The notes under the pieces were generated by a model. The model was not told the origin of the DNA. It was given only the letters and a program-made list of their open reading frames with translations, and ran no database searches. A program made the translations under genes and the position numbers. This document shows, in pieces, positions 52,880-56,661 of a stretch of DNA of 56,661 bases. The stretch covers positions 1 to 56,661 of the forward strand of contig JAKQII010000259.1 of NCBI GenBank assembly GCA_029557535.1, read 5' to 3'. Each line of letters starts with the position of its first letter. Within the stretch, counting starts at the first letter, position 1. This DNA comes from Acidobacteriota bacterium. Its GTDB lineage: Bacteria; Acidobacteriota; Blastocatellia; Pyrinomonadales; Pyrinomonadaceae.

Positions 52880-52942
52880 GTCAGTACCGCCTGCGTGAGC
52901 GGGCGGGAACTGTGGCCGCCCGCTGACGCAGGCGGTACTGAC
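52880..52942. repeat. REP-like palindrome pair (head-to-head), copy B
   Basis: Unit at 52880-52906 (GTGAGC instead of GTCAGC in the loop) and its reverse complement at 52916-52942, 9-base spacer GAACTGTGG. It lies in the leader of yifB, between it and the secreted protease gene. Confidence 0.9.
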
Positions 52943-53000
52943 TTCCAAAACTTTCCAACCTGATTCATTCGTTCAAATTGACTCATCAAATTGTTTCAAT

Positions 53001-53008
53001 CTGACCGA
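53001..53008 (+). promoter_or_regulatory. candidate enhancer-type site CTGACCGA upstream of the protease gene
   Basis: CTGACCGA here begins 72 bases before the -24 box; an identical octamer in the same relation (71 bases) precedes the second gene at 55748. Single site here, multiple at the second gene. Possible bacterial enhancer-binding protein site. Confidence 0.4.
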
Positions 53009-53034
53009 CTCACGACTCGAGACTCTCGACTCAA
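53006..53034. repeat. GACTCAC/GACTCGA heptamer array
   Basis: Four units (CGACTCA, CGACTCG, AGACTCT, CGACTCA) in 7-base register; reverse-complement family of AGTCGTG at 45571. Confidence 0.8.
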
Positions 53035-53051
53035 AACGCAGAACTCCTTTT

Positions 53052-53088
53052 ATTTGCAACACTTACACACTATGGCACGGTCGTTGTA
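53052..53088 (+). promoter_or_regulatory. sigma-54 type promoter of the secreted protease gene
   Basis: TGGCACG (53073-53079), 4 bases, TTGTA (53084-53088): the -24 element is perfect, spacing correct, the -12 GC reads GT. ATTTGCAACACTTAC at 53052-53066 is identical to a block just before the second gene's promoter. Predicted start near 53098, 63 bases before the ATG. Confidence 0.7.
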
Positions 53089-53160
53089 AAGAAATGGGCA
53101 GAGTTTCCTGCGTGGAAACACAAACACTGAACGGGAAGAAAGGGTCAAGGATGAAAGGCA

Positions 53161-55665
53161 ATGATTATTAATAGGAAATCAAACAAGTTCAACCCGGCAA
53201 CGAAGACCGCCGCATTCGTTCTTCTGCTGGCGCTCATGCTGACCAACGTTGTCAGCCTGAACGTCTACGCGCAGACATCGACGCAGCAGAAGACGACCGG
53301 ACTGCTTGCCAAATACACGACCGACCTAACGGCTCTCGCCAAGAACAACGAGATTCGGCCGAGTGCCAGCTTCGATCGTGAAGTTGACCGCTTGGCGACG
53401 GCGCTCAGCGAAGGCGGCCAGCAGCAACCCGTGATTCTCGACGCGGTCGGGAAGGACGAGTTGCTCGTTGTCGAAGCGCTTGCCGGACGCATCGCGGACG
53501 GTCGCGCCGGCGAGGGTCTCAAAGGAACCCGTGTGCTCAAACTTGACGTCGACACGCTCTTCGATCAGAAGAAAGATGCGAACGAGGTCATTCGTACGCT
53601 TGACGGCATCTTTATCGAACTCCGTGCCGAGAACCGAAATACGATCCTTTTTGTCGATGAACTGGCGAACTTTGTCGGAAACTCCCGCGTCAGCGATTCG
53701 CTGACGGCCGCGCTCGTCAACGGCACCGTCCGGATCATCGGCGGAAGTTCGCTCGAAGCTTACAAGGAAAACGTCGAATCCAACGATGTTGCCGCGATGT
53801 TCAAGCCAATCGTGATCGGCGGCGACGCCCGTAATCTTGAGAATCCCCCGAAGAATAACAACGGCATTGTCGCCTCGCGATTCAAGGGCGACAATGTTTC
53901 CCCCGACCTGCGTGAGATGATGGCAAACGACCCGACCGGCGGCAATAGGAAGGTCGAGGTCATCGTCCAGGCAAAGAACGACCGGCTGAACGGAGTCGCC
54001 AACGCCGAACGTATCGGCGGAAGCAATACTTTCGTGACGACGATTTCGCTCAACGACATCAACGCGCTTTCGACGAGCGGCGGCGTCAACTACGTTTCGC
54101 CGAACCGCGACACGCTTAACCTCGGCCATGTCGAGGTGACCACCGGGGCTACCCTCGTCCGCTCACAAGGCAGCGCGGGCACGCTTGACGGAACAGGCAT
54201 CGGTATCGCGGTCCTCGACTCCGGTATCTACTCGTCGCACAACACGTTCAAGTCGAGCGGCGGCGGAACCCGCGTCGTGTATAGCAAGAACTTTGTTTCA
54301 GGCGAATCTACGACGGCCGATTCGAACGGGCACGGAACCCACGTCGCAGGTCTCGCGGCGGGAAGTTCCAATTCGAACGGAGGCGCTTACAAGGGCATCG
54401 CGTCAAATGCGAACCTGATCAACCTCCGTGTGCTCAACGGCCAAGGCATGGGCAAGCAAGCCGACCTTTTGGCAGCGCTCGAGTGGGTTCGCGTCAATTG
54501 GCAGGCGTACAACATCCGCGTCATCAACATCAGCCTCGGGACGCCGGCGATCGATTCGTACCTGAACGACCCGGTAACGAACAAGATCTGGGAACTGTCG
54601 CAGATCGGTATCGTGACGGTCGCCGCCGCCGGAAACGATGGTCAGAACGCGGCCGGTCAGAAGATCTATGGGATGGTCCATTCCCCCGGCAACGAAAGCA
54701 CGGCGATCACCGTCGGCGCGTCGAACTCGATGGGAACCGACAGCCGCGGCGACGACAACATGACGACGTACAGTTCGCATGGTCCGACCCGAAGCTATTT
54801 AAACCTCTGGGGTACGAAGGTCTACGATCACCTGATCAAGCCGGATCTCGTTGCTCCGGGCAACAAGGTTGTCTCAGCGGCGAGCACGCCGAACGCATTG
54901 CTCGCGGCGGCTCCAACGCTGCAGACGTCCGCACTCAATCCGTCGGGAACGGCCAACGACATGATGTACCTCAGCGGATCATCGATGTCGACGCCGCTGG
55001 TCGCCGGAACCGCCGCGTTGCTGCTCCAGGCGAATCCGAAACTGACGCCGTCGATGATCAAACTGATCCTTCAGTACTCGGCGCAGCCCTTGAACGGGGT
55101 CAACATGTTCGAACAGGGCGCGGGCCAATTAAACATCGAGGGTGCAGTCCGGATCGCGAACGCGATGCGCAGCGACGTCAACTTCACGTACAGGTTTCAC
55201 GTTGGCTCAACGCTGATATCGACACTGCCGACGCCCTCGAGTTCGATCTCCGGAACGAATTTCACCTGGGCACAGGGAATCGTGACCGATCACTTTACGG
55301 CGAAGGGTACGGCACTGATCAGCAAATATCAGCGGATGTACGATCCGGGCTGGTCGTTCGATGACGGGATTTTCAACATCTATCCCTCGTCGGTGACCCC
55401 GTACACGCCGTGGCTGACGTCTGATGTGATCGGCGGCACTAACATCATGAAGAGCACCGGCGGCACGCTCGGAACCGGAACGGTCTTCACCTCGTCAGGC
55501 GTTCTGATGGGCGACGGCGTCCTGATGGGCGACGGCGTGATCTTCGGCGACGGCGTTTTGATGGGCGACGGCGTCCTGATGGGAGACAGCGTTATCTTCG
55601 GAGATTCCGTCTGGGCCACATCGAACGTCGAGATCAACGGTGACGCCACACCGTACATGCGATAG
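53161..55665 (+). CDS. secreted Clp AAA-like domain fused to a subtilase (S8) with GD repeats
   Basis: An 834-residue exported protein. Signal peptide at 1-38. Residues 44-222 follow the Clp/Hsp100 D1 module: DLTALAKNNEIRPSASFDREVDRL equals the linker to first helices, VILDAVGKDE (92-100) stands where GEPGVGKT should be, then ILFVDELANFVG keeps the Walker B pair D166-E167. The lost Walker A predicts no ATP hydrolysis. A pro-peptide-like piece (VEVIVQAKNDRLNG to VNYVSPNR) follows. The S8 domain has D353, H391 (NGHGTHVAG), oxyanion N492 and S608 (SGSSMSTPLVAG), all intact. Residues 780-818 carry GVLMGD/GVIFGD hexapeptides. Start ATG 53161. An own sigma-54 promoter and a terminator make it monocistronic. 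Confidence 0.85.
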   Translation: MIINRKSNKFNPATKTAAFVLLLALMLTNVVSLNVYAQTSTQQKTTGLLAKYTTDLTALAKNNEIRPSASFDREVDRLATALSEGGQQQPVILDAVGKDELLVVEALAGRIADGRAGEGLKGTRVLKLDVDTLFDQKKDANEVIRTLDGIFIELRAENRNTILFVDELANFVGNSRVSDSLTAALVNGTVRIIGGSSLEAYKENVESNDVAAMFKPIVIGGDARNLENPPKNNNGIVASRFKGDNVSPDLREMMANDPTGGNRKVEVIVQAKNDRLNGVANAERIGGSNTFVTTISLNDINALSTSGGVNYVSPNRDTLNLGHVEVTTGATLVRSQGSAGTLDGTGIGIAVLDSGIYSSHNTFKSSGGGTRVVYSKNFVSGESTTADSNGHGTHVAGLAAGSSNSNGGAYKGIASNANLINLRVLNGQGMGKQADLLAALEWVRVNWQAYNIRVINISLGTPAIDSYLNDPVTNKIWELSQIGIVTVAAAGNDGQNAAGQKIYGMVHSPGNESTAITVGASNSMGTDSRGDDNMTTYSSHGPTRSYLNLWGTKVYDHLIKPDLVAPGNKVVSAASTPNALLAAAPTLQTSALNPSGTANDMMYLSGSSMSTPLVAGTAALLLQANPKLTPSMIKLILQYSAQPLNGVNMFEQGAGQLNIEGAVRIANAMRSDVNFTYRFHVGSTLISTLPTPSSSISGTNFTWAQGIVTDHFTAKGTALISKYQRMYDPGWSFDDGIFNIYPSSVTPYTPWLTSDVIGGTNIMKSTGGTLGTGTVFTSSGVLMGDGVLMGDGVIFGDGVLMGDGVLMGDSVIFGDSVWATSNVEINGDATPYMR

Positions 55666-55692
55666 ACCCACTTCTCCTCTTCACCACCATTT

Positions 55693-55719
55693 GACCGCGC
55701 TTGGGCGCGGTCTTTTTTT
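55693..55719 (+). terminator. Rho-independent terminator after the protease gene
   Basis: GACCGCGC (55693-55700) pairs with GCGCGGTC (55705-55712) across TTGG, then seven T (55713-55719). Very strong. Confidence 0.93.
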
Positions 55720-55738
55720 CATTCTGAACGAATCGGGT

Positions 55739-55770
55739 TCGGTCAGTCTGACCGAATGCGCACTGACCGA
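55739..55770 (+). promoter_or_regulatory. candidate enhancer-type sites upstream of the second secreted gene
   Basis: TCGGTCAG (55739-55746) and CTGACCGA (55748-55755) form an 8-bp dyad with one base between; a further CTGACCGA sits at 55763-55770. The 55748 copy begins 71 bases before the -24 box, as at the first gene (72). Confidence 0.5.
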
Positions 55771-55798
55771 TTGACGCTGAAATTCGATAACCTATTGC

Positions 55799-55834
55799 AT
55801 TTGCAACACTTACCGATTTGGCACGCACATTGCC
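55799..55834 (+). promoter_or_regulatory. sigma-54 promoter of the second secreted gene
   Basis: TGGCACG (55819-55825), 4 bases, TTGC (55830-55833): full consensus. ATTTGCAACACTTAC at 55799-55813 precedes it, as at 53052. Predicted start near 55844. Confidence 0.8.
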
Positions 55835-55901
55835 ATTCGTTCGTTACCCGGCTGTGTCTCGGTTTGTGACGACCGGCCCAAAAAAAAGGAGATTGCAGAA
55901 A

Positions 55902-56661
55902 ATGAGAAAGCTAATTAAAGATCGCAAGTACCTGCCGAAGATCCTGGCGAGTATCCTGCTGATGTCGTTGGTGACGTCGCAGGCGCTCGTCGCCACGGTC
56001 TTTGCACAGGTTGGCGAGAATGTCGCGGCTTCCACCCCGGCGGCGATCTCGTACACTACCGATCTGACGCAGCTCGCGAAGGCGAACAAGCTGAATGTCA
56101 GCGGCAACTTCGACAAGGAGGTGAGTCGGCTCATCCAATCGCTGTCTTCCAGCGATGGGCGCCAGCCGGTTCTTCTCGATCCCGTCGGAAAAGACCAATC
56201 GCTGATCGTCGACGCGCTCGCGTCGCGGATCGCGAAGGGTGACGTTCCGGCGGAGATTGCTAACGTCAGGGTCCTGAAGCTTGAACTCGACGCGCTTTTC
56301 GCCGACAAGGCGAACGCGGCGGATCGCTTCGACGCCGTCATCGATTCGGTATCGGCGCTTAACGGTGCGGTTCTTTTCGTCGACGAGCTCGCAAACTTCG
56401 TCGGCGACGACCGGATCAACGCCAAGCTGACTGAAGCGCTCCTTGAGGGCAAGGTCCGGATCATCGGCGGCAGTTCGACCGAGGCCTACGCATCGATCGA
56501 CGCGAACGCCGAGGCATCCGCGCTGTTTGCAACGATCACGATCGGCGAACAGAATTCGAAGTTCAACAGCGGTCTGGCTTCCAACGGCGGATTCATTGGT
56601 GACAACGTTTCGTCGGATCTGCGTGAGATGATGGCGAACGATCCGTCCGGCAACCGCCGCG
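55902..56661 (+). CDS. second secreted Clp AAA-like protein, partial (window edge)
   Basis: The first 253 codons of a paralogue of the preceding gene; it runs off the window with no stop. A signal peptide (LASILLMSLVTSQALVATVF) is followed by DLTQLAKANKLNVSG, VLLDPVGKDQSLIVDALASR (degenerate Walker A again, at the same place), VLFVDELANFVGDD (Walker B) and VRIIGGSSTEAYAS (sensor-1-like). The linker DLREMMANDPSG is nearly identical to that before the pro-peptide in the first protein, so a subtilase domain probably follows beyond the edge (inference). AAGGAGA lies about 8 bases before ATG 55902. It has its own sigma-54 promoter. Confidence 0.8.
   Translation, partial: MRKLIKDRKYLPKILASILLMSLVTSQALVATVFAQVGENVAASTPAAISYTTDLTQLAKANKLNVSGNFDKEVSRLIQSLSSSDGRQPVLLDPVGKDQSLIVDALASRIAKGDVPAEIANVRVLKLELDALFADKANAADRFDAVIDSVSALNGAVLFVDELANFVGDDRINAKLTEALLEGKVRIIGGSSTEAYASIDANAEASALFATITIGEQNSKFNSGLASNGGFIGDNVSSDLREMMANDPSGNRR

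Follow-up and report, generated by a model that had tools for sequence, protein, structure and literature searches.

The two exported protease genes at the end of this stretch of DNA raise the question of why an identical 15-base block should stand directly ahead of two predicted sigma-54 promoters, and what that block contributes to their control. The window, i.e. the whole 56,661-bp stretch analysed, is an entire contig (C263) of a 4.77-Mb genome in 404 contigs from a soil-type member of the Acidobacteriota (family Pyrinomonadaceae), a dominant soil phylum whose members are mostly uncultured. Pattern scanning located a -24/-12 promoter TGGCACG-N4-TTGT ahead of gene 1 (53073–53087, + strand) and TGGCACG-N4-TTGC ahead of gene 2 (55819–55833, + strand), and the block ATTTGCAACACTTAC lies 6 bases before the first (53052–53066, +) and 5 bases before the second (55799–55813, +). 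All four elements were recovered exactly where a preliminary description of this DNA had placed them. Our conclusions on the sigma-54 promoters, the upstream palindromes (UAS), the A/T element and the leader hairpin are drawn throughout from sequence.

The two promoter boxes are no proof by themselves, as the -24/-12 pattern alone occurs at chance level genome-wide: TGGCAYR-N4-TTGY returned 13 matches in the whole genome versus 15 in the control, leading us to reject the genome-wide count of the bare pattern as evidence, and a window scan allowing two mismatches returned 27 matches versus 26.8 expected. Significance stems from the combination of block and promoter and from conservation in relatives. 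We assembled 70 ortholog upstream regions, picked solely by protein similarity over the N-terminal 260 residues, from 119 genomes of the same family (29 genera), together with a second set of 52 further S8 upstream regions, mainly from subtilases without the N-terminal domain. With a hand-set sigma-54 matrix, a best score of 11 bits or more was obtained for 68/70 ortholog regions, in which the gene 1 site is conserved, versus 1/70 on the reverse strand; a site was also present in 34/52 regions of the second set (control, 4/52). From the presence of the site in both S8 sets, we conclude that these proteases probably had a sigma-54 promoter ancestrally. The genomes are non-independent through kinship; nevertheless, positions flanking the sites display near-zero conservation. 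The features that define the class (TGGCACR-N4-TTGC 5′ of a gene, GG and GC being exactly spaced) were found, and the genome encodes RpoN (E value 3e-57). With +1 set 24 bp downstream of that second G in TGG, transcripts are predicted to start at ~53099 (gene 1) and ~55845 (gene 2), at most 1 base from the positions proposed earlier.

Further upstream, nearly every promoter carries one or two copies of a palindrome with the consensus TTCGGTCARNYTGACCGAA, whose centres usually lie 94 and 72 bp ahead of the -24 box. The dyad GTCA-N3-TGAC was found in 38 of the 62 non-redundant upstream regions used for dyad counting; shuffled sequences never contained it and gave at most 9 for any dyad at all. 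A UAS matrix built from these regions detected sites in 61/62 of them, most of which, counted from the T of TGG, fall at -91 to -96 or -70 to -75. The matrix thus describes promoters of its own training set, drawn from the same family, but both the controls and the held-out promoters agree with it (S8 promoters of which almost none had served for training: site of at least 12 bits in 19/34, versus 1/34 in reversed sequence). Neighbouring sites are 22 bp apart in 34 of 46 pairs, and displaced sites tend to shift by whole helical turns. The positions show a period of ~11 bp (Rayleigh z 53; held-out set, 12.6), as expected for looping. These sites have the properties expected of sigma-54 enhancers (dyad symmetry, frequent tandem arrangement, a position within about -80 to -150 and helical-phase dependence), and we regard them as putative activator-binding sites.

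In the window, gene 1 is preceded by UAS-1a TTCGTTCAAATTGACTCAT (52968–52986; centre -96 from the T of TGG; matrix score 18.6), which corresponds to the conserved ortholog site at -94, and by UAS-1b TTGTTTCAATCTGACCGAC (52991–53009; centre -73; score 17.3). Gene 2 is preceded by UAS-2a TTTTTTCATTCTGAACGAA (55714–55732; centre -96; score 14.8) and UAS-2b, a perfect 19-bp palindrome TTCGGTCAG-T-CTGACCGAA (55738–55756; centre -72) that has the top score of the set (26.7) and is one of three exact core matches in the genome; none of the four was assigned a strand. The preliminary description had stated that nothing else around the two promoters was as similar as the block. This proved incorrect: when the promoters were aligned on the block over 225 bp, a single further exact run of at least five bases emerged, TCTGACCGA (53000–53008 and 55747–55755), which precedes the block by exactly 52 bp at either promoter. 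It forms half of the enhancer palindrome (the perfect one in gene 2) and is contained in UAS-1b.

Across the 119 genomes, two cores followed by TGGCA gave 69 matches versus 1 in the control, and a joint palindrome and sigma-54 scan of both strands of the window and twelve neighbourhoods (~280 kb) returned 15 matches, all at subtilase promoters. Adding the enhancer can turn boxes of chance frequency into confident promoters. The palindrome alone with two mismatches gave 73 places versus 9 in the control, a comparison that we rejected because the GC-rich palindromic pattern makes the control unfair; one-mismatch places that we inspected had no adjoining sigma-54 site, and at least two lie inside conserved coding genes. 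Only palindromes with a correctly placed sigma-54 site were accepted.

No other copy of the 15-base block with 0–2 mismatches occurs in the window, and across the genome the 14-mer followed by TGGCAC was found at these two places only (reversed-pattern control, 0). Among 195 genomes, the exact block with TGGCA is present in this one alone, and we rejected it as a conserved unit. What relatives retain is a degenerate pattern. In an anchored profile of 61 non-redundant promoters, conserved A/T steps appear at -30/-28 (TAA), -20/-17 (WTTT) and -9/-7 (TTA), with an extra A/T rise near -37, and A/T content upstream of -24 has a 10-bp period (power 0.37; maximum in 500 randomised sets, 0.05). The ATTT and TTA of the block, about one helical turn apart, are two of these periodic steps; at the level of sequence, the block exemplifies a degenerate A/T element of 10-bp period just upstream of -24. 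The suggestion that it was kept under selection is supported for the phased A/T element in this degenerate form, but the exact 15-mer is confined to this genome.

The degenerate element alone does not account for the identity of the two window copies. One alternative is that a dedicated activator or co-regulator of both proteases binds directly to the block. The 15/15 agreement is unique in the genome and joins old paralogs whose proteins are only 47 % identical, and it far exceeds that between ortholog pairs (mean 5.5/15, maximum 13/15). The orthologs, however, retain the ~10-bp A/T pattern and not the letters of the block, and its distance to the -24 box differs by 1 bp between genes 1 and 2. 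Moreover, similar blocks precede the sigma-54 promoters of unrelated genes encoding a STAS protein, a glycine-zipper protein and a pilin, upstream of which the palindrome score is around zero or lower, so the block is probably not the site of the activator. It accompanies sigma-54 promoters generally; the palindrome, which the preliminary description had overlooked, accompanies this regulon and is the better candidate for specificity. We consider a dedicated binding site at the block improbable, although it is the strongest of the alternatives. As to the preliminary description, enhancer-dependent sigma-54 control of the exported proteases is strongly supported (rpoN, promoters in 68/70 and palindromes at classical enhancer distance in 61/62 upstream regions), but the attachment of the block to a specific signal is not.

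Block-like sequences also recur elsewhere. Genes for exported glycine-zipper proteins (L165, L167, L241 and L243) carry an TTTTCAAYAACTTA block and a strong sigma-54 promoter without a UAS. TTTCAAYA-N1-2-TTA directly 5′ of TGGCAC recurs at sigma-54-like promoters of flagellar, PEP-CTERM-like and other genes in many phyla (L175–L254) and could be a general promoter-proximal element. A search of all GTDB genomes for the degenerate block with the promoter returned 95 matches in many phyla; we discounted it, as composition alone may produce tens of these given how abundant sigma-54 promoters are.

A related proposal, which we judge slightly less probable still, is that the block is a bending site of the integration host factor (IHF) type. 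IHF assists many sigma-54 promoters, and the related sites TTTCAA-N4-TTA approach the IHF core consensus WATCAANNNNTTR. Both blocks in the window nevertheless read CAA-N3-TTA, which is the wrong internal spacing and makes IHF less likely, and the N3 and N4 versions are found side by side among relatives.

With the promoters, the palindromes and their phasing and specificity, the A/T periodicity and the hairpin established from sequence, we regard it as very probable that each tandem subtilase gene has its own RpoN promoter, served by a palindrome-bound activator, and that the block is a promoter-proximal segment aiding contact between enhancer and polymerase. An enhancer-binding protein would bind one or two palindromes, 22–24 bp apart at about -120 and -98 from the start, and switch on the separate sigma-54 promoter of each gene. 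Between enhancer and -24 box, the A/T steps of the block, spaced ~10 bp on one helix face, would in all likelihood introduce curvature or present the minor groove for contact with the C-terminal domain of the polymerase alpha subunit (alpha-CTD), and would help enhancer and polymerase to meet. The transcripts would open with a short, probably protective hairpin and then encode the exported proteases, and the same control would act family-wide on orthologous and paralogous subtilases and on a few other genes (diguanylate cyclase, PqqD-like). It counts against this mechanism that both palindromes of gene 1 are degenerate.

Palindromes are typical of many regulators, and binding of an activator to those described here is deduced from sequence; they might instead bind a repressor or a regulator unconnected with sigma-54, with another activator serving the -24/-12 sites. 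Positions of -98/-120, the 22-bp tandem spacing, the ~11-bp phasing and the near-invariable coupling to -24/-12 sites are enhancer-like and would be odd for a repressor, and every sigma-54 promoter requires an activator; we therefore think this unlikely. That the block is a functionless leftover of gene duplication or local gene conversion is the least credible reading: the genes are tandem paralogs and the exact 15-mer (as block with TGGCA) is absent from 194 relatives, but the flanks have diverged to 20–39 % identity and the proteins to 47 %, only functional positions are common to both, and the A/T pattern persists across genera.

By its defining features in sequence, the subtilase system is a sigma-54/enhancer regulon. 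At classical sigma-54 enhancers, promoter-proximal DNA is bent by IHF or by intrinsic curvature; the arrangement here is alike in having sites ~100–120 bp upstream, a preferred helix face and bendable DNA between, and differs in that the presumed bend is a conserved 10-bp A/T pattern abutting -24, without IHF consensus spacing in the window. The closest system is the PrsK–PrsR/PEP-CTERM regulon of Proteobacteria, which consists mostly of single-gene units for exported proteins (Haft et al. 2006, PMC1569441) with a 17-nt activator motif, sometimes repeated, ~63 nt before the -24/-12 site and a further ~71 nt to the start codon (PMC1569441). Layout is alike and spacing and leader lengths are very similar; the subtilase regulon differs in its palindrome, its subtilase cargo and its occurrence in Acidobacteriota. 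Motif 1 of the PEP-CTERM regulon has TTTACA at its end, and reports of it are confined to Proteobacteria (PMC1569441), whereas the conserved motif here is the palindrome, without a TTTACA ending, and the subtilase C-termini carry GVLxxDG repeats in place of a PEP-CTERM. The FleQ box of Pseudomonas, the pseudopalindrome GTCAAT-N2-ATTGAC, is bound by the Fis-type HTH of an activator, is sometimes duplicated and is linked to c-di-GMP and surface functions (PMC10723142). Our palindromes share the GTCA...TGAC ends and can likewise be duplicated, but have GTCA-N3-TGAC with outer TTCG/CGAA instead of GTCA-N6-TGAC and are not FleQ boxes. Exported, surface-related products are in keeping with sigma-54 as a controller of the bacterial exterior (Francke et al. 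2011, PMC3162934); the text of that study does not include Acidobacteria, and secreted proteases are outside the functions it lists. In our searches of the open full-text literature, we found no description of a sigma-54 regulon with its enhancer sequence in Acidobacteriota; the present comparison defines, from sequence, an enhancer consensus, the rule for its spacing and some of the regulon's members.

In this genome, a palindrome with a correctly placed sigma-54 site precedes the two subtilases, a PqqD-like gene (C292, L391), a membrane diguanylate cyclase gene (C321, L392) and an unassigned place at a contig end (C335, L382); the PqqD-like gene is downstream of a multihaem cytochrome c gene. 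In relatives, the combination was found before several subtilases, GGDEF proteins, one HD/GGDEF protein and one PqqD-like gene. The regulon thus appears to span a bacterial family, covering orthologous and paralogous subtilases, and the diguanylate cyclase genes are suggestive of a link to cyclic-di-GMP. A single regulator, in which cyclic-di-GMP may have some part, would in this way govern secreted protein degradation.

Candidates for the activator are numerous, since the genome encodes 15 strong sigma-54 activators (PF00158); a Pfam scan of 10 of these returned an HTH_8 match in all 10. A neighbourhood search found an activator gene in 2 of 12 subtilase neighbourhoods, which share local synteny. 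Both genes, from two genera, encode a response-regulator sigma-54 activator (L413, 12105–13634; L415, 4849–6273), and the two are 78 % identical to each other; the best match in the present genome is only 44 % identical, without a clear orthologue, and we treat this protein as a lead only towards the cognate activator. As the enhancer is defined from sequence, a short oligonucleotide (e.g. TTCGGTCAGTCTGACCGAA) could be used to fish out the activator. Elsewhere in the genome (L388; C275, 2000–7000), two pilin genes stand beside a PilR-like response-regulator activator; both have a sigma-54-like site but lack a UAS, consistent with a separate sigma-54 circuit.

The predicted gene 1 transcript carries a hairpin, GTTTCC-TGCGT-GGAAAC (53103–53119, within 53099–53125, + strand), near the predicted start, and congeners have GATTCG-N5-CGAATC in the same place. 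Stems reaching the cut-off were present in 56 % of leaders, compared with 13 % of shuffles and 5 % of upstream control DNA; stem starts cluster at the predicted transcript start, most sigma-54 subtilase leaders (L270–L339) have such a short hairpin, and leader folding has a mean z of -1.2 versus 0.08. The stem letters vary while pairing stays, favouring an RNA structure over a protein site, and the hairpin may stabilise the mRNA. The gene 2 leader hairpin is weak, and an Rfam search of 52900–56000 returned no match. Direct reading also revealed an intrinsic terminator of gene 1, GACCGCG-CTTGGG-CGCGGTC followed by 7 T (55693–55719, +), whose T run overlaps UAS-2a, so that gene 2 is a separate unit.

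Gene 1 (53161–55665, +) encodes an exported S8 subtilase of 834 aa with a signal peptide, a ClpB-NBD1-like domain (~aa 46–220), an S8 domain (triad motifs D353/H391/S608) and C-terminal GVLMGDG repeats. Gene 2 (55902–56661, +) has the same architecture and is cut by the contig end; joined to contig C86 (L389) through a 141-base perfect overlap (window 56521–56661), it encodes 884 aa with intact triad motifs, and the contig break within it is an assembly graph break. A Peptidase_S8 domain was detected (E value 4e-46), both genes encode the D/H/S triad motifs, and the two, old tandem paralogs, share 47 % protein identity. The 175-residue N-terminal domain matches the large subdomain of ClpB/ClpC NBD1 (profile E value 7e-44 to ClpB) and is conserved across the family; in the window, it spans 53281–53830 (gene 1, aa 41–223) and 55980–56530 (gene 2). 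An intact Walker A (GxxGxGKT) is absent from the 19 aligned sequences, which have DAVGKDELL or DEKGENQ instead, and a Walker B-like ILFVDEL is retained in many of the domains. It is a pseudo-AAA domain that is apparently exported. The AlphaFold model of gene 1 has low overall confidence (pLDDT 63) and the top Foldseek matches listed are all subtilase-type proteases; it is the sequence profile that identifies the domain as ClpB-like. We offer, tentatively and with more doubt than belief, the proposal that a dedicated sigma-54 activator, with a c-di-GMP link provided by the diguanylate cyclase genes of the regulon, drives, family-wide, the secretion of a new protease class in which an exported dead Clp-type AAA domain is fused to a subtilase; if so, the dead domain is perhaps a built-in chaperone, inhibitor or substrate holder. 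At the other end of these proteins (window 55460–55640 and the C-termini of L026–L038), GVL[IVM][SG]DG repeats form arrays of variable length, possibly a beta-solenoid or a surface anchor.
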